From NCBI GenBank assembly GCA_015056245.1, contig SVGQ01000021.1, positions 1-33,724 of the forward strand: a DNA stretch of 33,724 nt, in the 5' to 3' direction. The number at the start of each line of letters is the position of its first letter. Positions within the stretch are counted from its first letter, which is position 1. Positions 13,478-23,366 of this stretch are shown here, in pieces. This DNA comes from Clostridiales bacterium (lineage in GTDB: Bacteria > Bacillota > Clostridia > Christensenellales > Aristaeellaceae). The notes under the pieces were generated by a model. The model made no database searches, had not been told where the DNA came from, and saw nothing but the letters and a program-made list of their open reading frames with translations. The position numbers and the translations under genes are program-made.

Positions 13478-13518
13478 TTTATAAAACAATGTAACACAAC
13501 GACATGAGGATTCGCAAG

Positions 13519-16500
13519 ATGAACCGGTTTGAAGATGTTGTCAGGCGGATGGATATTTCGACCATTTCAGGGGACTTCGTCAGCCCGTATACCTTTCAGG
13601 AACGGGATTTCTTCGTGTGCGAATATGCCTTGGCAGATGGCAAACGCCTCTACTCACAGGGCGGTCTGGCATCTGCTTTTGGTCTGGAGATTCCCCAGCA
13701 GCTGGATGCGTTGGCACAAGCCAGTAAGGAATGGCCGATTACAGCGGAATACCAGCAGGCTACGGAAGTGTTCTTCAGCAATCTGAGAGAGCAGGCAGTC
13801 CAGATGAATGGCGCGCCCTCCCTGTTTGAAATGCGGATGTCTGCGGATGGTATGGAAAGCTGGATCTGCCTGAGCAGCGCGGCAGCCTTCCGGGATGGGG
13901 AGCGCACCTTGCAGCTGCGCCTGATGCGGGTGGATAATGAGAAGCGGGAACTGGCCCGGCTGGTGGACCGTTCCGAGACCGACCCCCTGACCCATGCCCT
14001 GAACCGAAACGGCCTCATCCATGCCATGGGAGAGCTGGCAGCCAATGGTCAGACCTATGCCTTTTTGATGCTTGATATCGACGGTTTCAAGCGTTTTAAT
14101 GATACCTATGGTCATCTGGCGGGGGACGCCTTGCTGACCCGGATCTCCGATCAGCTGGCGGCAGGTCTGCAGCCGGAGGATCTGATTGCCCGTATAGGCG
14201 GCGATGAATTTATCATCTGTCTGTACAACGCGGAGGAAAACCAGTCCATCCAGCGCACGGTGCGCCATGTGCACAAAGCGGTGCTGGAGGATTCCCCTGA
14301 GGGCTTGCAGCTCAGCGTCAGCATGGGCGTTGCCCTCAGCCCCAAGGATGGCACCACCTTTGAGGAACTGTACCACAAAGCGGATATTGCCATGTACTGC
14401 GCCAAGCGCAGAGGCGGCGACAGTTATCTGTTCTATGAGGCCGATATGGTCATGCCTGATCCGGACGAGGTGGAAAGCCGTCCGGAGATCTGCCAGCAGC
14501 ATATGCTGATCCGTTATTGCCCGGAAACCGATACGTTCCAGTACCCGCCGGAGCTGCGGGATGTGTTCCAGGTCAGCTTTGAGGGACGCAGCCTGTGGGA
14601 TGTACTGGCACAGGAGCACATTGCCCGCAGCGATACCATCCAGCGGCTTCAGGCCGATTTTCAGCGCATGTGCAGCTGTGCCGGAGTGGACTTCTCCGAG
14701 TATCTTTTGAAAAACGCCACGGGTATGTGGCGTTGGTTCAGGATCGGCTTCATTTCTGCCGGGGCGGGCAAGGAACTGTCCATCACCCTGACGGATGTGA
14801 ACGACGAACTGCATAGCGCGCGCCAGATGCGGCATCTGTCCGAGTTTGACGAACTGACCGGCCTGCTCAGCCACAGCGCCTTTGTGCAGCATGCGGAAAA
14901 AATCCTCAGCGCAGACCCGCAGGGACAGCAAAACGGCGAATATGCTGTAGTTTATTTCGATATTTTGCGGTTTAAAGCCATCAATGACCGTTTTGGTGTC
15001 AGCGAGGGAGACCGCTTGCTCACCTATATCGCCAATGGACTTGCCTCCCATATTACCCAAGGGGAAGCAGCCTGTCGTTTGGCAGCGGATCAGTTTGCCC
15101 TGCTGCTTCACCGCAGTGGAGAGAAATTGCAATCCTTCGTGACCAACTACCTCAAAGCGGTGGAAAGCTACGACCTGAGCTTTGAGATCGTCAGCAATGT
15201 GGGTATCTATACCGTCACTGAGCTGGGTTTGTCCGTGGATGCCATGCTGGATCGCGCCATTCTGGCTCAGTCCACCATCAAGGGCAGCTATGTGACCAAG
15301 TACAATTACTACTCCGAAGAATTGCGCAGCGCCATGCTTGGTGAGCAGGAAATCGTGGGTATGATGAACGCTGCTTTGGCAGAGCGTCAGTTTGTGGTGT
15401 ACTATCAGCCCCAGTACGATCATTCCACCGGCGAGCTCATCGGCGCGGAGGCTTTGGTGCGCTGGCTCCATCCCGAGCATGGCCTGATTTCTCCCGGCGT
15501 GTTCATTCCCATCTTCGAGAAAAACGGCTTCATCACCCGGCTGGACTTCTTTGTATTCGATCAGGTGTGCCGCTTCCAGCGCATGTGTCTGGATCAGGGC
15601 CGCAAAACCGTGCCCATCTCCGTCAACCTGACCCGCTACGATATTTACCAGCGGGACTTCATCGACCAGCTGGAGGCCATTCGCCAGCGGCACAATGTGC
15701 CGGTGGAACTGACCTGCATCGAGATCACCGAAACCGCTGTGGTGGGAGATAACCTGCACGCTTCCAAGATTATCGAGCAGCTGCACCAGAAGGGCTATGT
15801 CATCGAAATGGATGACTTTGGCAGCGGCTATTCCTCCCTGAACGTGCTCAAGGATATCGATCTGGATATCCTCAAGCTGGATATGCGCTTCCTGACCACC
15901 GCCATGGCGACCAATCGCAGCGGCACCATTCTCAGCTCCATCGTACGCATGGCGAAGTGGCTCAGCCTGCCGGTGATTGCCGAGGGCGTGGAAAGCATGC
16001 AGCAGGCCGATTACCTCAAGAGCATCGGCTGCAACTACATTCAGGGCTTCCTCTACGCCCGTCCCATGCCGGAGGGGGATTTTACCACCCTGCTGAACCG
16101 TTCCACTGTGGGCGAGACCCGTCCCTCCATGCGCCTGATCGAAACCCTCAGCGCGGATGATTTCTGGAATCCGGAGTCTCAGGAAACGCTGATTTTCAGT
16201 AACTATGTGGGGGGCGCCTCCATCTTCGACTATCACGGAGGACGGGTGGAGGTACTGCGGGTGAATCCCAAGTACCTGCACGAGATTGAGAACTGCATCA
16301 ACGAGCAGGAACTGATGGCCCGGGATGCCCTCACCCTCTTTGACGATGCCAACCGCCAGCTGTATATTGATATGCTGGAGCGGGCCATCAACTCCGGCGA
16401 GGAGGAAGAGTGTGAAACCTGGCGCACCTACACCGGCTGCCCCTGTGAGCGCATCTGTGTGCGCAGCTCCGTGCGGGTGATCGGTCGCAGCAAGGATAAC

Positions 16501-16911
16501 TACCTCTTCTATGAGCTGATCCGCAATATCACCCGGGAGAAGGAAGCTCTGGCTGAGGTCGCTCATCGGGAGACCCTGTTCCGGGCTGCCAGCGAACAGG
16601 TGAATATCTACTACTGGGAATATGATGTGGCTACCCGGGAGATGCGTCCCTGCTTCCGCTGCAAGCGGGATCTGGGCCTGCCGGAACTGGTGACCAACTA
16701 TCCGGAACCCGCCATCGAGATGGGCATCTTCCCGCAGGATGTGGCGGACCAGTACCGGGAAATGCACCGCCAGATCGAGGCCGGTGCCAAGGAACTGGAA
16801 GCCATTCTGCCCCTGACTGCAGCCCGGGTCATGTTCCGGGTAAGGTACACCACAGAGTTTGATAAGGACGGCAAGCCGGTGAAAGCTTATGGCTCGGCTG
16901 TGCCGGTGTAG
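13519..16911 (+). CDS. Large cyclic-di-GMP enzyme: GGDEF + degenerate GGDEF + EAL with PAS-like flanks
   Basis: 1130 aa from ATG 13519, preferred over ATG 13504 because 'atgagga' gives a ribosome site. Order: an N-terminal sensor-like region (1-145); an active-looking GGDEF cyclase with 'RIGGDEF' at 225-231 and 'DIDGFKRFNDTYGH'; a PAS-like linker; a second GGDEF whose signature is 'AADQF' (522-526), so probably catalytically dead; an intact EAL phosphodiesterase with 'EALVRW' from 644, 'SVNLT', 'EITET', 'DDFGSGYSS' from 765 and 'EGVES'; and a C-terminal PAS-like region (from about 890). The product could both make and break c-di-GMP, the second messenger controlling motility and adhesion, with the dead domain acting as a GTP-sensing regulator (inference). 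No transmembrane segment is evident. Monocistronic. Confidence 0.93.
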   Translation: MNRFEDVVRRMDISTISGDFVSPYTFQERDFFVCEYALADGKRLYSQGGLASAFGLEIPQQLDALAQASKEWPITAEYQQATEVFFSNLREQAVQMNGAPSLFEMRMSADGMESWICLSSAAAFRDGERTLQLRLMRVDNEKRELARLVDRSETDPLTHALNRNGLIHAMGELAANGQTYAFLMLDIDGFKRFNDTYGHLAGDALLTRISDQLAAGLQPEDLIARIGGDEFIICLYNAEENQSIQRTVRHVHKAVLEDSPEGLQLSVSMGVALSPKDGTTFEELYHKADIAMYCAKRRGGDSYLFYEADMVMPDPDEVESRPEICQQHMLIRYCPETDTFQYPPELRDVFQVSFEGRSLWDVLAQEHIARSDTIQRLQADFQRMCSCAGVDFSEYLLKNATGMWRWFRIGFISAGAGKELSITLTDVNDELHSARQMRHLSEFDELTGLLSHSAFVQHAEKILSADPQGQQNGEYAVVYFDILRFKAINDRFGVSEGDRLLTYIANGLASHITQGEAACRLAADQFALLLHRSGEKLQSFVTNYLKAVESYDLSFEIVSNVGIYTVTELGLSVDAMLDRAILAQSTIKGSYVTKYNYYSEELRSAMLGEQEIVGMMNAALAERQFVVYYQPQYDHSTGELIGAEALVRWLHPEHGLISPGVFIPIFEKNGFITRLDFFVFDQVCRFQRMCLDQGRKTVPISVNLTRYDIYQRDFIDQLEAIRQRHNVPVELTCIEITETAVVGDNLHASKIIEQLHQKGYVIEMDDFGSGYSSLNVLKDIDLDILKLDMRFLTTAMATNRSGTILSSIVRMAKWLSLPVIAEGVESMQQADYLKSIGCNYIQGFLYARPMPEGDFTTLLNRSTVGETRPSMRLIETLSADDFWNPESQETLIFSNYVGGASIFDYHGGRVEVLRVNPKYLHEIENCINEQELMARDALTLFDDANRQLYIDMLERAINSGEEEECETWRTYTGCPCERICVRSSVRVIGRSKDNYLFYELIRNITREKEALAEVAHRETLFRAASEQVNIYYWEYDVATREMRPCFRCKRDLGLPELVTNYPEPAIEMGIFPQDVADQYREMHRQIEAGAKELEAILPLTAARVMFRVRYTTEFDKDGKPVKAYGSAVPV

Positions 16912-17118
16912 TTCTTCAGGAATGGGAATAATCGGTTTGCAGGCTCAGCCCACATCCGGCAGGGGAGACAGAGGGAAGTGTGCGCCTGGTGGGCATTTGC
17001 GCAAAGCAGAAAAAGCCCCGCACTCGCGGGCCGAAATGAGCGCGGGCTACGGCAGTAGCCTGTTCAGCAATTGAGGTTGCAGAAATCATCCCCTGCCCCG
17101 CACTTTTTCAACAATCTA

Positions 17119-17156
17119 ACAGGGACTGTTGCAGATTGAGCAACAGTCCCTGTTTT
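17119..17156 (+). terminator. Strong hairpin between convergent genes
   Basis: A 14-bp perfect stem ('acagggactgttgc'/'gcaacagtccctgt') with a 7-nt loop, then TTTT on the plus strand. It probably ends the GGDEF-EAL transcript, and its reverse face could also slow the minus-strand RNA-repair operon, which ends 9 bp away. The remaining spacer 16912-17118 holds only a minor GC-rich repeat ('gccccgcactcgcgggc'). Confidence 0.8.
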
Positions 17157-17164
17157 CATGTTTA

Positions 17165-18337
17165 CTACACACAAAGATATTCCACCTGCCGCGCTTCGTA
17201 TCCCTCCGGCGGGCTCAGTTTGTCCAGCATGCGCCCAATGGCGGCTTCCGACACTACGGCGGTACGGCTCTGGTTGCGGCGCAACTGTTCCTGCCACGGG
17301 GTTTCCAGATACACGATGCGCACCGATGCGCCGTAGCTTTCAAACAACTTTACCAGTCCCGCCCGGATGGAGAAGGTCAGGTTGGTGGCATTGTAGACAA
17401 AGGGTTGGTGGGCCCGCAGATATTCCCGGCAGCGTTCCTGTCCGGCTTGTACCACCGGGCCTTGCGGTTCGGTGGGGGAAATGTGCATCTCGTGGCGCAG
17501 CTCATCCAGACTGACCATGGGCATTTGGGGGCAGTTCTGGCTGATCCATGTATCCTTGCCGGTGCCAGGCAGGCCGCACAGCAGGATCACCTCGCCCCAC
17601 GTGTTATCGAAAAGCGCTTGCTCGGGCCAGATGTTGCGCCCGGAAAGATACGCCCGTGCAGTATGGAGCGTGGCAAAGGGGCGGGGGCTGCGGAGGCAGT
17701 CCAGTTCTTCGGCAGCCAAGGCGCACAGTTCCACTTTTTCCACCCCTTGGGCGGTATCATCCGCAAGGCGGCCCAAGGTATCGGCTTTGGCAAGGGCACA
17801 CAGCCGTTGCAGGGTGAAATCCGGCAGGAACAAGCCGTTGCTTGCCATTTTGCTCAGCCGAAGCTCCGGGTCGTCTCCTTCCAGCACCCGGGTAGGGATC
17901 ATGTGGTAGCGCACCAGCCAGCAGATGGTTTCTCGCAGTTGCTGGGCTTCCGGGGTACCGCACAGGCCGCAGTCCACCCACAGATACCGGCGGGCCATTC
18001 GCGCTCCGGTCACCGCGTGATAGGGAGAAGTCCAGTTGCCATCATCCATTACCGTGCAGGGAATCTTGCCGATGTCATGCAAAAGCGCCGCCAGAAACAA
18101 AAGTTGCTGGTGCCGGGAGCTTTCAGCGTGGTATTCCGGCAGCTGAACCAGCTGTTCGCAAACCATGCGGGTGTGGCTCCACACATCGCCTTCTCCATGC
18201 CAGCTGGGATTTTGCTGGGTTTCTGCCATCTTGCGGGCAAAGGTGCCATAGCCGGTGGCGGTGATGGCTTCCCAACGGATGGGTTCCTCCGGTGAAACGG
18301 GCAGGGCTGCCAGCAGAGCATTCCATTCAGCGGTCAT
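17165..18337 (-). CDS. HD-domain 2',3'-phosphoesterase fused to 5'-OH polynucleotide kinase (HD-Pnk-like RNA end-healing enzyme)
   Basis: 390 aa. The N-terminal HD domain has H55 ('SHTRM'), H87-D88 ('LLHDIGK'), further His at 107 and 145, and D186 ('LAKAD'), a complete metal set. The C-terminal P-loop kinase has 'GLPGTGKD' (255-262), 'SLDELR' (D278 and R281, like the catalytic Asp and 3'-phosphate Arg of T4 Pnkp), 'NATN' (317-320) and a lid with 'RRNQSR'. This arrangement matches the HD-Pnk family described from Runella: it heals broken ends by removing 2',3'-cyclic or 3'-phosphates and phosphorylating 5'-OH. The ATG overlaps the ligase stop by 11 nt and uses 'aaggagg' inside the ligase gene, so the two are coupled. 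Last gene of the operon. Confidence 0.88.
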   Translation of the reverse strand: MTAEWNALLAALPVSPEEPIRWEAITATGYGTFARKMAETQQNPSWHGEGDVWSHTRMVCEQLVQLPEYHAESSRHQQLLFLAALLHDIGKIPCTVMDDGNWTSPYHAVTGARMARRYLWVDCGLCGTPEAQQLRETICWLVRYHMIPTRVLEGDDPELRLSKMASNGLFLPDFTLQRLCALAKADTLGRLADDTAQGVEKVELCALAAEELDCLRSPRPFATLHTARAYLSGRNIWPEQALFDNTWGEVILLCGLPGTGKDTWISQNCPQMPMVSLDELRHEMHISPTEPQGPVVQAGQERCREYLRAHQPFVYNATNLTFSIRAGLVKLFESYGASVRIVYLETPWQEQLRRNQSRTAVVSEAAIGRMLDKLSPPEGYEARQVEYLCV

Positions 18338-19154
18338 GAGGTTCCTCCTTGGGCAATTGGGGCAGGTACAGATCGCCGATGGGGCGGCACAGCTGATTGG
18401 GAATGATAGGCCGCTCCAGCCAGTGGCTCTGGGACTGTTCCACGGTTTGCAGGAAACTGCTGCGCACGAACTTGACCCGGCGGGTCACCTGCCCATCCTC
18501 TTCCACCTTCAGGTAAAGGCCTTCCATGGTACGGGCGGCGTCGGTTTCCCGTAGGGAACGCTCCACATCCTGGCCTTCTTTTTCGGTGGCGGCCCGCAGG
18601 TTGTCCAGATGGTTCTCCGTAATGTAGCAGGAGTCGCCCAGATAGCTCAGCACATCAGCGGCTTTGTGGAAGCAGCCCCGGGCCAATACCGGCACGGAGC
18701 AGACTGGCAGATCTTTGAGCATCTGGTGACGCCGGTCGGTGGAGAGAAACTGACCGCTTTCCCGGTCCAGAATATCAAACTCCATAAAGTAGTGGGGGAG
18801 CGCATCATAGAAGATGCTGTGCTTGGCGTACATCCATTCGCCGTACATCACGTAGCGGCAGCCCAGCACCTGCCAGAACGCCTCCCGGTGGATGCCTGCC
18901 CACTGCTTGAACAGCTGGTAGTGCTTCTCCCGGTAGCCGCCGGTCAGGTAATGTCCCCGGCTCTGGAGCAGCAGTTGCCCAGCAGGATCAAAGGATAGGG
19001 CAGAGTTGGCCCCATCGATTTTTTCTTCGATCACCAACGGCAGATCGGCGATCTCCGCAAAGGGAATCTGGGAGAGATCCTCATCGCCGGGCTGCAGGCG
19101 GGAGCCTTCGATGTGGGGCGTACGGGGGTATTTGATGATCCGATAGTCGTCCAT
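18327..19154 (-). CDS. ATP-dependent RNA ligase (nucleotidyltransferase superfamily)
   Basis: 275 aa from ATG 19154, chosen because 'agaaaggattcccct' lies in front; an in-frame ATG at 19178 would lie inside the methyltransferase gene. Motif I is 'EEKIDGAN' with the AMP-accepting Lys45; motif Ia is 'SRG' (65-67); motif III is 'YGEWMYAKHSI'; motif IIIa is 'FMEFDILDR'; motif IV is 'EGLYLK' (211-216); motif V is 'VKFVR' (227-231). This is the classical ligase set, and the compact size fits the RNA ligase branch (Pfam RNA_ligase) more than NAD- or ATP-dependent DNA ligases. It would seal 3'-OH/5'-PO4 RNA ends prepared by the adjacent HD-kinase. Which RNA it repairs is not known; tRNA cut by ribotoxins is a reasonable guess. 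Confidence 0.9.
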   Translation of the reverse strand: MDDYRIIKYPRTPHIEGSRLQPGDEDLSQIPFAEIADLPLVIEEKIDGANSALSFDPAGQLLLQSRGHYLTGGYREKHYQLFKQWAGIHREAFWQVLGCRYVMYGEWMYAKHSIFYDALPHYFMEFDILDRESGQFLSTDRRHQMLKDLPVCSVPVLARGCFHKAADVLSYLGDSCYITENHLDNLRAATEKEGQDVERSLRETDAARTMEGLYLKVEEDGQVTRRVKFVRSSFLQTVEQSQSHWLERPIIPNQLCRPIGDLYLPQLPKEEPHDR

Positions 19155-19168
19155 AGGGGAATCCTTTC

Positions 19169-19864
19169 TTATTTCCATGCCATCATCAGCAGATGATTGG
19201 GCACGCCGTCAAAATGCAGGTTGGTGCAGTCTGCCTTGGCAAACAGGTCGGTCAGGATGGGTTTGGTCAGCAGATGGATGTGCTCCGGGTTGTCATCGGG
19301 CTTGGAGGGCACGCTGAGGATGATGCAGCGCCGGGCCAGCCGTACCGCTGCGCGGATGGCTTCCTCCACGTTGGGGATGTGCTCCAGTACCTCCAATAGG
19401 GTGACCACATCGAAGGTATCATCAGGCATCTCCCATGTGGTGATGTCCTGCTGCAAGGCTGTCAGGTGGGGATAGCCGCCCCGCTGTACATCGTTTAGCA
19501 GCTCCACCCGGTGGGCCAGCAGATCCAGCGAGGTAACGGGCACGCCGGGAAAGGCTTTCAGAAAGGGGAAGAGAAAGACGCCCCGCCCGCTGCCTACATC
19601 CAAAAGGGATTCCGGCTGCACACCGCTGAGCAGCCCCAGCACCCGCTTCACCCGGGGCAGGTCGTGGTGATCCTTGAAGCGGTAGAGCTTCATTTCAGCT
19701 TTGCGCCCGGCAGCAAGGATGGTCTGCTTTTCTTCTTCTGTCAGCTCTGCCAGTGGTTTGGAGGTCAGCTCTGCTGACAGCGCGGGCATGCCGGTGCGCA
19801 GGGATACGCCCCGCACCCACGCGCAAGCCAAAGGTGTGTCAAAACGGTCATTCGTGTCGTACAT
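19169..19864 (-). CDS. SAM-dependent methyltransferase with a Hen1-like ExxEH...H signature
   Basis: 231-aa class I (Rossmann) methyltransferase. SAM-binding motif I is 'LLDVGSGRG' (87-95), with Asp114 ('SLDLL') and Asp140 ('LQQDI'). A metal-type pattern is visible: E158, E161 and H162 in 'LLEVLEHIP', then H195 and H197 in 'PEHIHLL'. Hen1-type enzymes use such Glu/Glu/His/His residues to 2'-O-methylate the terminal RNA nucleotide, and bacterial Hen1 works with Pnkp before sealing. However, 'LEVLEH' is also common in small-molecule methyltransferases, so the Hen1 role is a hypothesis based on context. It starts at 19864, overlapping the MATE stop by 17 nt, and ends 14 bp before the ligase. Residues 1-75 are a helical extension ('LAELTEEEKQTILAAGR'). 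Confidence 0.82.
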   Translation of the reverse strand: MYDTNDRFDTPLACAWVRGVSLRTGMPALSAELTSKPLAELTEEEKQTILAAGRKAEMKLYRFKDHHDLPRVKRVLGLLSGVQPESLLDVGSGRGVFLFPFLKAFPGVPVTSLDLLAHRVELLNDVQRGGYPHLTALQQDITTWEMPDDTFDVVTLLEVLEHIPNVEEAIRAAVRLARRCIILSVPSKPDDNPEHIHLLTKPILTDLFAKADCTNLHFDGVPNHLLMMAWK

Positions 19865-21239
19865 CGTCCGTCTCCTTTTCGGGAAGCATCCTTCCCTTTT
19901 TCCAGTGACCGGTCAGGTAGAATACCAGCCCGATCCAGAACGGGGTGAAACCAGCCAGCGCATCGCCCAGCCAGAATCCGAAATGTTTCATGTTCAGTAC
20001 CAAGCCAAACAGCACCGACAGGCCGATGCGCAGCACAATGCCGTCCAGAATGGCAGTGACAAAGTTGATGCGGTGATTGCCGCTGCCGTTGATGAGGGCG
20101 TTCATGATAGCCCGGAGCGCGCTTCCGATGAACAGCAGCACCGCAATGGGAATATAGCGGGGAACCAGCTCCATTACCGCCGGATCGGTGGTGAAGATGC
20201 TGAAAATAGCCTGAGGGAAGAGAATGATCAGCCCGGAGAACACCGCCGCTACCGACAGGTTGATCACTGCCAGCGCCCGCAGAGTCTTGTTGACCCGGTG
20301 GAAATCGCCTGCCGCCAGATTCTGACCCACCACGGTGGAACCGGAGGTATTCATGGCGTTGGAAACCAGAATGCTCACATTGCCCACTTTGTTGGCGATA
20401 CCCGCAAAGGCGGAAACCACGATGCCGTAGGAGTTGATCCACGAATTGACGAACAGTTTGGAGATCTGCACCGAAGCGCTTTTGATCGCCATGGGGAAGC
20501 CCAGTTTCAGAAGGTCGCTGAGCATTTCCCGGTTCCAGCGCAGGAAACTGGCAGGGCGCACATTCAGTTGAAACTGCTCCTTGTGGCGCAACAGGAAGAT
20601 GGAACAGGCGATGAAACTGACCGCCTGACTCAGTACCGTGGCAATGGCTGCGCCGGCAGGGCCCATCTCAAACACCATCACAAACAGGATGTCCAATATC
20701 AGATTCAGTACTGCCGCAATACTGATGAAAATAAAGGGATGCTTGGAGTCGCCCATGCCGCGCAGGATGGCGCTGACGATGTTGTAGCCGTAAATGAACA
20801 CCAAACCCGCCATACATACCGCGGAGTATTCCAGCGCGCCCTGATAGGCTTCCGCAGGCGTGTGCATGAGCCTGAGCAGGGTGTGGCGCATCAGGAAACT
20901 GACGCCGCTGACCACCAGCGCTGCTGCCAGCAGGAAACCCGTCATGGTGCCCACGAAAGTACCGATATCCTTTTGCCGCCGTGCGCCGATCAGCCGGGCG
21001 ATGATCACCTGTCCTGCGCCGGAAAAACCGATGGCGAGGAAGGTAAGCAGACCGCTCACATCGCCGCCGACAGCCACGGCGGACAGGGCATTCTTGCCCA
21101 GATGGTTGCCGATTACGATCATATCCACCATGTTGTAGACGATCTGCAACAGGTTGGATAAAAACAGCGGCAGAGAGAAAATGATCAGTTCCTTGGCGAT
21201 GGGGCCTTTGGTAAAATCCTTGATTTGCGAAGTTTGCAT
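19848..21239 (-). CDS. MATE-family efflux transporter
   Basis: 463-aa multi-drug and toxic-compound extrusion (MATE) transporter, the length typical of the family. Twelve hydrophobic segments are visible. Conserved features include 'LSLPLFLSNLLQIVYNMVD' near the N-terminus, 'GFSGAGQVIIAR' and 'ILRGMGDSKHPF' in the first half, and 'NAMNTSGSTVVGQNLAAGD' at the start of the second pseudo-repeat. It would export small organic compounds using a Na+ or H+ gradient. It is the first gene of the four-gene minus-strand operon, sharing 17 nt with the methyltransferase, which is unusual for RNA repair. The ribosome site is 'agaggtcacacatccc'. Substrate unknown. Confidence 0.88.
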   Translation of the reverse strand: MQTSQIKDFTKGPIAKELIIFSLPLFLSNLLQIVYNMVDMIVIGNHLGKNALSAVAVGGDVSGLLTFLAIGFSGAGQVIIARLIGARRQKDIGTFVGTMTGFLLAAALVVSGVSFLMRHTLLRLMHTPAEAYQGALEYSAVCMAGLVFIYGYNIVSAILRGMGDSKHPFIFISIAAVLNLILDILFVMVFEMGPAGAAIATVLSQAVSFIACSIFLLRHKEQFQLNVRPASFLRWNREMLSDLLKLGFPMAIKSASVQISKLFVNSWINSYGIVVSAFAGIANKVGNVSILVSNAMNTSGSTVVGQNLAAGDFHRVNKTLRALAVINLSVAAVFSGLIILFPQAIFSIFTTDPAVMELVPRYIPIAVLLFIGSALRAIMNALINGSGNHRINFVTAILDGIVLRIGLSVLFGLVLNMKHFGFWLGDALAGFTPFWIGLVFYLTGHWKKGRMLPEKETDDVRHE

Positions 21240-21274
21240 GGGATGTGTGACCTCTTTTGTTTGATACGCTCCCT

Positions 21275-21319
21275 ATTGTAGCACGATACAAAAAGCCTGC
21301 GCAAGAGGATGCGCAGGCT
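21275..21319 (-). promoter_or_regulatory. Promoter of the MATE/RNA-repair operon with overlapping hairpin
   Basis: On the minus strand TTGCGC (21304-21299), 18-nt spacer and TACAAT (21280-21275). The -35 lies inside a perfect 10-bp hairpin ('agcctgcgca'/'tgcgcaggct', 21294-21319) which on the minus strand ends in TTTTT. The hairpin can act as a terminator for upstream read-through, insulating the operon. Confidence 0.6.
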
Positions 21320-21527
21320 GTATCCAATCGTTGGATATAGAAGAAGACCGCAATAAAAACTTTATAGCTACACATTTTCGCTTCTGGTTGAATAAGTAGG
21401 AAGAGAACTTTTGAATATACGTTATCGCGATTAAAGATAGATACATTTAGTAAGTTGAAATAGCATTTCACAAAGCGCAATCAAGACGTGTAAATATTCA
21501 GTTTTCAATGTAACAAAGGAGTGATAT

Positions 21528-21602
21528 ATGTGGTACTGTTGTAAGCACATTCAGAACAGGCGTACACAGAGTCTGGAGTTAAAGTGTGCTATGTGTATGT
21601 GA
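21528..21602 (+). CDS. Possible 24-aa Cys-rich small protein
   Basis: Reads 'MWYCCKHIQNRR' then 'LKCAMCM', with four Cys and one His, after a good ribosome site ('aaaggagtgatat'). It could be a small metal-binding peptide, a remnant of a longer zinc-ribbon gene, or chance. There is no promoter I can defend, and it lies in AT-rich DNA. The surrounding stretches 21320-21527 and 21603-21851 show no other gene, repeat or RNA. Confidence 0.25.
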   Translation: MWYCCKHIQNRRTQSLELKCAMCM

Positions 21603-21851
21603 AATGAAGCACTTGCTCTTGTGGAATGATGTTTATCAGTAATTTTTTGTTTAGAACTTCGTGGATAGCGTCGATGGCTTAATCATTCCAATAAATTGAT
21701 AAAAATGAACTTTTTGCATGTATCATATATAGCACATTGGGCTGTAATAAGGCTTTTTTGACTTGTCGTATTGCTGAATTGATGAAGTATATTCAAAACG
21801 ACGGAGAATAAATGCCTACATCAAGGAATCAATATTTTTTTCAGTGTTGAA

Positions 21852-23366
21852 TCATTTAATAGTTTTTTTATGTTCGGTGTTCAAACGACGCCATTCAATC
21901 ATGTGACCAAGACAAAGAAAAAAGGAAAAGTCCATTGGGTGCAAGTTGTTACCACCGGGCAGAAAATGTCCACCTAAAAACAGATGTGGTTCCATAAAAC
22001 CTACACCAAACAAGCCGACAACTAACAATGCAACGCATTTTTTCCAAGCTTCATAACATTTGCCAAATAATATGGCTATCACATGCCAAATGGAAATGGT
22101 TGTAATCCCAAATATCATTAGAAAACCGGGCACCCCAAGCGCTGATAGTGCCTCAAGCCACGAATTATGAGTATGTGGATGGTTGATATTAATACTTTCT
22201 AAAGTATACATAGAATAGTCTAGACCAAATAGAAGAACAGTTTTATTTTGCGATATATTCTCGAGAAAACTAATCCAAATTGGAATCCGGCCATTGAGAG
22301 TTGGGAGCGCCCACAATTGACGCTGAAATGCAGATAATGATTTCGCAGTCGATAAAAGAGACACTGAAGTACTTGCTTTTCGTGCAACGACTGGTTGCAT
22401 TGCTTTATATCTCTCACGATTTGCGCAAATACTACCAATACCAGCCACGGTTTGATGAAACATATCTGGCAAAGATCTATCTGCTTGCTTTTCATCAACT
22501 TTTATCTGATGATATTGAGAGGAAGGCGTTTCAGCTTTTTCCTTATACATATCCCAGTGCCATACGAAGACTAATTGATTTATTAAGAATGCGACAACAA
22601 TAATAATAATTGCTGCCATCACGCCGGCAATAAAACGAATATAGCCTCCTTTGTTGATGAGAACAAAAACACATCCTGCTGATACTAAGTATGCCATCCA
22701 AATCGCAGCATTACATTTTGTCAACGCTAACACAATAAACATTAGGATTATCATAATCACTAATGCTACCTTAATTTGCATTCGTTTTGTTATAGAAAAA
22801 GCTGTGAAAGCAAACCCAATTCCTGCTACCAACAAACCTCCTAATTGACTAGGATGTACCATAATACTAATCCCGCTATTGTAAAGAAAAACATCGGATT
22901 TCAAAAAAAACGGCACCTGATCTATTACCAGCAAACCAGCAAGAACAAGAATTACAATCAATCCTGCAAAAAAGAACCCCATATATAGTTTTAAGCCTTT
23001 ACAACTCTCTCCATCCTTGGCAATGCTGGCAAACGGAAGCGCCAACAAATAAACTGATGAAAACACGCCAATGGGACGTACCTTCAACCCTTGTTGCTGA
23101 TGAATCAATTGAACGATCAAAAACCAAAGGACCATAATGCTTCCAAGTATCAATAATTGCTTGGTTGTTTTGGTCTTGGTCTTAACGATTGCAATCCCAA
23201 AGAATAACACTGTTGGAATCAACGACCATGCATTTACCACAAAATCAATACGGTTTTCAAAAACAATCAATAAAAAATCCAGAACCGCTACCATCAATAA
23301 GCAATAATATATCACATCCGTTTTACGGATTCTATCAATTATTCTGTTGGCTTGCCAACCTTTCAT
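21852..23366 (-). CDS. O-antigen-ligase-like polymer ligase (Wzy/WaaL family)
   Basis: 504-aa polytopic membrane protein with about 10-12 hydrophobic segments. A large extracellular loop follows 'VFVWHWDMYKEK' (about residues 275-370), and the family hallmark 'HPHTHNSWLEALSALGVPGFLMI' follows, similar to the 'H.HN.YLQ...E.G..G' end of the Wzy_C/O-antigen ligase loop. Such proteins polymerise or ligate lipid-linked glycans at the outer face of the membrane. The ATG at 23366 follows 'aaaggagcgccgtc'. It is strikingly AT-rich compared with neighbours and stands alone, without glycosyltransferase genes, which suggests horizontal transfer. The promoter is at 23405-23434. Exact glycan unknown. Confidence 0.83.
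   Translation of the reverse strand: MKGWQANRIIDRIRKTDVIYYCLLMVAVLDFLLIVFENRIDFVVNAWSLIPTVLFFGIAIVKTKTKTTKQLLILGSIMVLWFLIVQLIHQQQGLKVRPIGVFSSVYLLALPFASIAKDGESCKGLKLYMGFFFAGLIVILVLAGLLVIDQVPFFLKSDVFLYNSGISIMVHPSQLGGLLVAGIGFAFTAFSITKRMQIKVALVIMIILMFIVLALTKCNAAIWMAYLVSAGCVFVLINKGGYIRFIAGVMAAIIIIVVAFLINQLVFVWHWDMYKEKAETPSSQYHQIKVDEKQADRSLPDMFHQTVAGIGSICANRERYKAMQPVVARKASTSVSLLSTAKSLSAFQRQLWALPTLNGRIPIWISFLENISQNKTVLLFGLDYSMYTLESININHPHTHNSWLEALSALGVPGFLMIFGITTISIWHVIAILFGKCYEAWKKCVALLVVGLFGVGFMEPHLFLGGHFLPGGNNLHPMDFSFFLCLGHMIEWRRLNTEHKKTIK

Follow-up and report, generated by a model that had tools for sequence, protein, structure and literature searches.

Three adjacent genes from a Clostridiales bacterium (NCBI GenBank assembly GCA_015056245.1, contig SVGQ01000021.1) are supported as a real and widely conserved unit, made up of a class I S-adenosylmethionine (SAM) methyltransferase (hereafter MT), an ATP-dependent RNA ligase, and HD-Pnk, a protein that joins an HD phosphoesterase domain to a polynucleotide-kinase-like domain. 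They lie in a stretch of 33,724 nucleotides, referred to below as the window. On balance, we lean toward the reading that this trio is a horizontally mobile cassette for the repair of broken RNA, which it would heal, mark, and seal. The genes belong to a string of four tightly packed open reading frames (ORFs) on the minus strand, which runs from a MATE exporter through MT and the ligase to HD-Pnk. The initial annotation of this DNA had described a four-gene operon in this order, and all four ORFs were found where it placed them, with the expected Pfam domains:

17165-18337, minus strand: HD-Pnk, 390 aa, with an N-terminal HD phosphoesterase domain and a C-terminal P-loop 5'-OH polynucleotide-kinase-like domain.
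18327-19154, minus strand: ATP-dependent RNA ligase consisting of the nucleotidyltransferase domain alone, 275 aa from its likely start at 19154.
18327-19178, minus strand: the same ligase ORF read from its first ATG at 19178, 283 aa.
19169-19864, minus strand: MT, class I SAM methyltransferase, 231 aa, with a Hen1-like E158-x-x-E161-H162 ... H195/H197 motif.
19848-21239, minus strand: MATE-family exporter, 463 aa, a local neighbor heading the gene string.

The MATE and MT genes overlap by 17 bp, and the ligase and HD-Pnk genes by 11 bp. Since aligned relatives begin at or near the internal ATG at 19154, this is probably the start of the ligase, which would leave a 14-bp gap after MT in place of a 10-bp overlap.

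What takes the arrangement of the trio beyond chance is that relatives keep the three genes together. We gathered a wide sample consisting of the best 80 of at least 543 ligase relatives from named genome records, and located the genes at these loci by tblastn. HD-Pnk was detected at all 80 loci; in 79 it immediately follows the ligase, and in the remaining one the order is rearranged. MT was detected at 67, including 62 in which it lies ≤130 bp upstream of the ligase. Four of the 13 loci without MT have <400 bp of upstream sequence and thus fall outside the 76 testable loci, so that MT is present in 67 of the 76 with enough upstream sequence. Because these 80 loci represent the closest relatives, more distant ones may differ. 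As titled in the records, the loci come from Bacillota (58), Bacteroidota (16), Planctomycetota (4), and Chloroflexota (1), with one unassigned, and gut or rumen samples appear in many of the titles; titles of metagenome assemblies may be wrong, but the spread to Bacteroidota and to Planctomycetota is in each case backed by several records. Closer to the source genome, and counting it, the ligase was found in 20 of 150 genomes of the family and 5 of 17 of the genus, and in 2 of 398 genomes of the phylum, the second being a weak partial match. At the 19 other family loci, MT and HD-Pnk were each found in 17; the two without MT are L018 and L020, the latter being a ligase remnant only, with a short HD-Pnk match. 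The genome-neighborhood comparison suggested with the initial annotation thus shows MT, ligase, and HD-Pnk staying together across relatives.

A phylogeny of the ligase and HD-Pnk (92 rows) requires at least eight changes in MT presence and at least five changes in phylum label, indicating that the trio has moved and that MT was lost or gained several times. Over 76 loci, tree distances were correlated for MT and ligase (Pearson 0.58, Spearman 0.33), MT and HD-Pnk (0.72 and 0.56), and ligase and HD-Pnk (0.65 and 0.42), compared with ≤0.16 for shuffled data. Among viral contigs, 23 hold a ligase relative, and none of these has MT; a long HD-Pnk match was detected in three (L103, L107, L125) and short kinase-region matches in six more (L110, L112, L117, L122-L124), a count that leaves out matches overlapping the ligase, which stem from L020, a fragment mislabelled among the queries. 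Searching viral sequences with MT itself gave a single weak relative. Two different ligase relatives lie about 4-6 kb apart on viral contigs L117 and L120-L124.

Conserved motifs give good support to the healing and sealing roles, as does the fold in the case of the ligase. The ligase matches the Pfam family RNA_ligase (PF09414, 1.2e-33, 117.1 bits against a cut-off of 27), and the KIDGAN motif reported in the initial annotation was confirmed at residues 53-58. This stretch holds the nucleotidyl lysine of the K-x-D-G motif, which is present together with the downstream motifs, all with residues invariant in 79 of 79 sequences. In a fold search with the ligase model, the nearest solved folds are RNA ligases and clear DNA ligases rank lower, although one entry titled "putative DNA ligase" (3qwu) is among the nearer folds; the concern voiced in the initial annotation that the enzyme might be DNA-specific is therefore not favored by the predicted structure. 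The identity to the RNA ligase of Naegleria gruberi and to T4 Rnl2 is about 17-18%, and because the match starts at Naegleria residue 139, the N-terminal part of that chain has no counterpart in the alignment.

HD-Pnk combines an N-terminal HD domain (H...HD...D; Pfam HD, 1.5e-8) and a C-terminal P-loop kinase domain (AAA_33, 2.1e-23) in one protein. In 53 of 53 aligned sequences, residues H47, H55, H87-D88, H107, H145, and D186 of the HD part are invariant, as are the P-loop residues G260-K261-D262 together with D278 and R281. Profile matches include seryl-tRNA(Sec) kinase, the HD part of chains titled poly A polymerase, and T4 polynucleotide kinase, as well as a phage family of unknown function (phrog_6931, 1.1e-16, residues 38-380). 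In work by the Shuman laboratory, HD-Pnk of Runella slithyformis reportedly heals 2',3'-cyclic phosphate and 5'-OH ends, and is said to act on DNA ends as well. In genome G590, of the same genus and without a detected ligase, an orthologue of the MATE gene (70% identity) is directly followed by an HD-Pnk homologue (45%; L166:1501-3981) which keeps the HD residues and has lost the P-loop lysine. As judged from this sequence, the kinase of HD-Pnk may decay when the ligase is absent.

MT has the features of a class I SAM-dependent methyltransferase, namely a methyltransferase domain (Pfam Methyltransf_23, 7e-14) and a Rossmann-like fold with a glycine-rich motif. All 65 aligned sequences have E158, E161, H162, and H195, and 64 of them keep H197. 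According to PMC10781085, the corresponding E, E, H and later His of HEN1 coordinate a metal to which both hydroxyls of the terminal ribose, 2'-OH and 3'-OH, are bound. When aligned by hhalign to the C-domain of six Hen1 or Hen1-like proteins, two of which score below the Hen1 family cut-off, MT matched with a probability of 96.7%, and E158, E161, and H162 were paired with the metal-site E, E, and H. The motif also sets MT apart within its own genome: among 17 methyltransferase reading frames found with PF13489 (three of them without a match to the MT profile, and one, L159, holding a stop and read up to it), MT alone has E-x-x-E-H...H at that position, one other having E-x-x-E-H at its C-terminus. 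Across 40 whole genomes, a subset of the 80 wide loci hand-picked after their neighbors had been seen and hence not blind, we obtained 34 strong MT matches (292-364 bits), one per genome and all ≤4 kb from the ligase; the next best hit of the profile reached 49 bits, and in the six genomes whose locus lacks MT no strong copy lies elsewhere. In these genomes, MT is thus exclusively linked to the cassette. Bacterial Hen1 itself scored above the family cut-off in 4 of 299 genomes of the phylum, and no match to it was found at E 0.001 in the source assembly (3.1 Mb, 189 contigs, 81% complete, single ligase copy). Based on its motif, we consider MT a candidate 3'-terminal ribose 2'-O-methyltransferase.

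Many of the loci also carry conflict-type neighbors. A gene for an ADP-ribosylglycohydrolase, a PARG-type enzyme, or NADAR was found within about 6 kb in 24 of the 80 wide loci, the recurrent families being ADP_ribosyl_GH, PARG_cat_microb, and NADAR, the last also fused to an NMNAT-like domain. Further recurrent extras are calcineurin phosphoesterase (9 loci), HD_4 (5), RtcB (3), and a LigT-like 2H phosphoesterase (6), whose Pfam score of 23.1 is just below the cut-off of 23.3, while two recurrent neighbor families (L053:782-2086 and L051:2765-3313, three loci each) matched nothing in Pfam at 0.01. Of the 33 NADAR and 55 ADP_ribosyl_GH matches in the 40 genomes, 12 and 19, respectively, lie ≤10 kb from the ligase, against 0.21 and 0.36 expected, ratios that are inflated because the genomes were chosen after the neighbors were seen. 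These counts use 33 of 34 NADAR rows and 55 of 61 ADP_ribosyl_GH rows, those left out being extra pieces of split matches, one stop-containing fragment, and rows below the cut-off. On the tree, the ADP-ribose neighbor label requires at least 16 changes, a figure inflated by short contigs counted as having no such neighbor. None of the 10 other window ORFs scanned is an ADP-ribose-removing gene. At two loci, genes joining an NMNAT-like domain and NADAR lie inside the cassette (L053:4160-5886 and L085:3426-5852), the gene order in L053 being MT, HD-Pnk, NMNAT-NADAR, NADAR, ligase; about 3 kb downstream of the ligase, L061 (9339-11441) encodes a single protein in which a microbial-type PARG domain is joined to one of the ADP-ribosylglycohydrolase type. 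L032, L044, and L090 each have an RtcB RNA ligase gene ≤5 kb from the trio, so that in these three of the 80 loci two unrelated RNA ligases share the locus.

Taken together, the simplest account using all three enzymes, and in our view the best reading, is a heal-mark-seal pathway that would follow the logic of the Pnkp-Hen1 and Pnkp1-Rnl-Hen1 systems. Going by the motifs of HD-Pnk and by the reported activities of its Runella counterpart, the HD domain would remove a 2',3'-cyclic or 3' phosphate and the kinase domain would phosphorylate the 5'-OH end. MT would then probably methylate the 2'-OH of the exposed 3'-terminal ribose, with a metal held by E-x-x-E-H...H, and the Rnl2-like ligase, given its fold and motifs, would join the ends using ATP. 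The product would be an RNA, most likely a tRNA, resistant to recutting at the same place by the same nuclease; by analogy, we infer a tRNA substrate and a ribotoxin trigger. The initial annotation had likewise proposed a heal-mark-seal logic split over separate proteins, which agrees with the conserved trio, the nearest-RNA-ligase fold, and the Hen1-type motif of MT, while the marking step is the part that we infer.

Several observations weigh against this reading, most of them concerning MT. The bacterial Hen1 model TIGR04074 gives MT only 17.5 bits (E 0.0011) against a cut-off of 340, and MT covers only positions 230-370 of the 462 in that model, without the N-terminal ligase-activating region of Hen1. 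Scored singly against the MT profile, the six Hen1 or Hen1-like proteins reach only 2.8-19.9 bits, and the hhalign alignment ends before the fourth metal ligand, so that H195/H197 are matched by motif position only. The model for MftM, a mycofactocin-oligosaccharide methyltransferase, scores higher on MT (70.7 bits, under its cut-off of 200), and UbiG has the same E-x-x-E-H stretch. In addition, two structural searches with the MT model (pLDDT 95.2) each showed 50 rows, and Hen1 is in neither set, an absence that, by the search tool's own caution, is no evidence against kinship. The matches shown span a wide variety of class I methyltransferases, and the fold therefore does not single out Hen1. 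Finally, MT is missing from 9 of the 76 testable loci and is thus not indispensable, and two of the 18 family loci with a full ligase (L015, L017) have no HD-Pnk within about 1.5 kb. A true Hen1 is ruled out by the family score, and structure, showing a generic class I fold, failed as proof of kinship. The designation of MT as Hen1-like in the initial annotation accordingly holds for the motif and not for family membership: it denotes a resemblance.

One rival reading is repair in which no terminal ribose is marked: HD-Pnk and the ligase would mend the RNA, and MT would methylate that substrate elsewhere, such as at an anticodon-loop base, restoring a modification or blocking recleavage. The nine testable loci without MT and the three viral contigs with a long HD-Pnk match indicate that the HD-Pnk and ligase pair can exist alone, and METTL6, a tRNA base methyltransferase, is among both the profile and the structural matches of MT. 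However, the invariant metal-type residues would be an unexpected requirement for a base methyltransferase, and we regard this alternative as unlikely, if deserving of attention. Less credible still is a role in RNA processing, in which the trio would mature or circularize a particular cellular RNA. ATP-dependent RNA ligases do circularize RNA elsewhere, as described in PMC12153264, but the patchy occurrence of the ligase within the genus, family, and phylum, the conflict-type neighbors at many loci, and the lack of any Rfam match at the gathering score in window positions 16000-23000 make this improbable.

Another option is a broader nucleotide or ADP-ribose conflict island in which the trio would process the ends of ADP-ribosylated RNA or soluble ADP-ribose products instead of nuclease-cut RNA. 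The presence of ADP-ribose-removing genes near the ligase, including their enrichment in the hand-picked genomes and their repeated changes on the tree, is in line with this idea. Such genes are nonetheless missing from 56 of the 80 loci, many of which have short flanks, and from the window ORFs scanned, and we give the idea little credence. A DNA-repair function, with the ligase and HD-Pnk healing and sealing DNA breaks, could draw on the 3qwu match and on the reported activity of the characterized HD-Pnk on DNA ends. Against it stand the RNA ligases nearest in fold and a motif in MT that would point to a ribose diol, which DNA does not have, and we consider it very improbable.

HD-Pnk beside a ligase gene is already known, reportedly from the Runella slithyformis operon, in which a protein of the same HD and P-loop kinase architecture is encoded next to an ATP-dependent ligase. 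What the present loci add is a cassette-tied methyltransferase family (34 of 34 strong copies in the 40 genomes); to our knowledge, no methyltransferase has been described for HD-Pnk operons. The heal, 2'-O-methylate, seal logic itself is that of the bacterial Pnkp-Hen1 complex, in which healing and ligase activities reside in a single protein, Pnkp (PMC4411300). Here two proteins share them, an HD domain takes the place of the phosphatase, and the methyltransferase is not Hen1 by the family cut-off. In Pnkp1-Rnl-Hen1 of Capnocytophaga gingivalis, the end-healer, ligase, and methyltransferase are three separate proteins, as in the trio, but in that account hen1 is far from the pnkp1-rnl operon and the healer resembles T4 Pnkp (PMC4411300), unlike the three adjacent genes and the HD-type healer (HD + AAA_33) seen here; neither the T4-Pnkp-like healer nor the Hen1 subunit of that system was found in the trio. 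Phage RNA-repair sets, as described in PMC7824862, share with it ATP-grasp RNA ligases and polynucleotide kinases, with HD-like phosphatases in a few jumbo phages, and differ in that no ligase-bearing viral contig in our set has MT. ARG-centred host systems (Iyer et al., PMC9503650) have similar neighbors, i.e., ADP-ribosylglycohydrolase, NADAR, and calcineurin-like and alarmone-type HD phosphatases, but section 3.8 of that paper names no RNA ligase, and the ADP-ribose genes here are optional neighbors of an RNA-repair trio. No description of the MT-ligase-HD-Pnk trio was found in the open-licence literature searched, although Burroughs and Aravind 2016 or the Runella HD-Pnk paper may contain one. 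In PADLOC, neither the ligase nor MATE had a match; MT matched mad2 of the MADS defence system (8.8e-12, residues 68-186), which probably reflects the shared methyltransferase fold, and Cas3 matched HD-Pnk at 0.00093.

The MATE gene (Pfam MatE, 1.1e-48) is by contrast a local neighbor. It adjoins the trio in two of the five ligase-bearing genus genomes, the source genome and one 90%-identical relative, and orthologues at about 70% identity also occur in two genomes without a detected ligase. In the wide sample, a MATE-type gene lies nearby at 4 of 80 loci: adjacent and 86% identical in L040, whose ligase is 90% identical to that of the source genome, about 4 kb away and 60% identical in L077, and about 1.2 kb away and 23% identical in L048 and L059. 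With this distribution, MATE is ruled out as a cassette component, and the tie between exporter and repair put forward in the initial annotation is not borne out; its reservation that MT or MATE might not be conserved beside the ligase was unfounded for MT and justified for MATE.

Pattern scans of the surroundings revealed two hairpins:

17118-17154, no strand assigned: 15-pair hairpin just past the HD-Pnk stop codon, a possible terminator by consensus match only.
21294-21319, minus strand: T-tailed hairpin of 10 pairs, located about 55 bp upstream of the MATE start, which may be the terminator of an upstream unit or an attenuator.

A pattern scan of positions 16900-21900 identified no sigma-70-like promoter, and no tRNA gene was found in the window. 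Convergent with the cassette, a 1135-aa protein with GGDEF and EAL domains is encoded on the plus strand at 13504-16911, and in L021, L022, and L040 the trio is flanked by proteins that resemble it on visual inspection.

Beyond the cassette itself, we tentatively entertain a wider possibility, which we hold to be rather doubtful as a whole: that gut bacteria possess a separate, mobile system for RNA repair, in which a methyltransferase family of its own marks the mended end independently of Hen1, and which is frequently found in islands together with ADP-ribose-removing enzymes, so that a single locus could reverse both RNA cutting and RNA ADP-ribosylation in conflicts among bacteria, phages, and toxins. 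If so, repair that leaves a protective mark would have arisen with another, second family of methyltransferases, in a form divided among three neighboring genes, and would have spread across gut phyla; the ADP-ribose neighbors would suggest that RNA in these communities may be attacked by ADP-ribosylation besides nucleases. The trio would then also offer a concrete test of whether bacteria mark the RNA that they mend.

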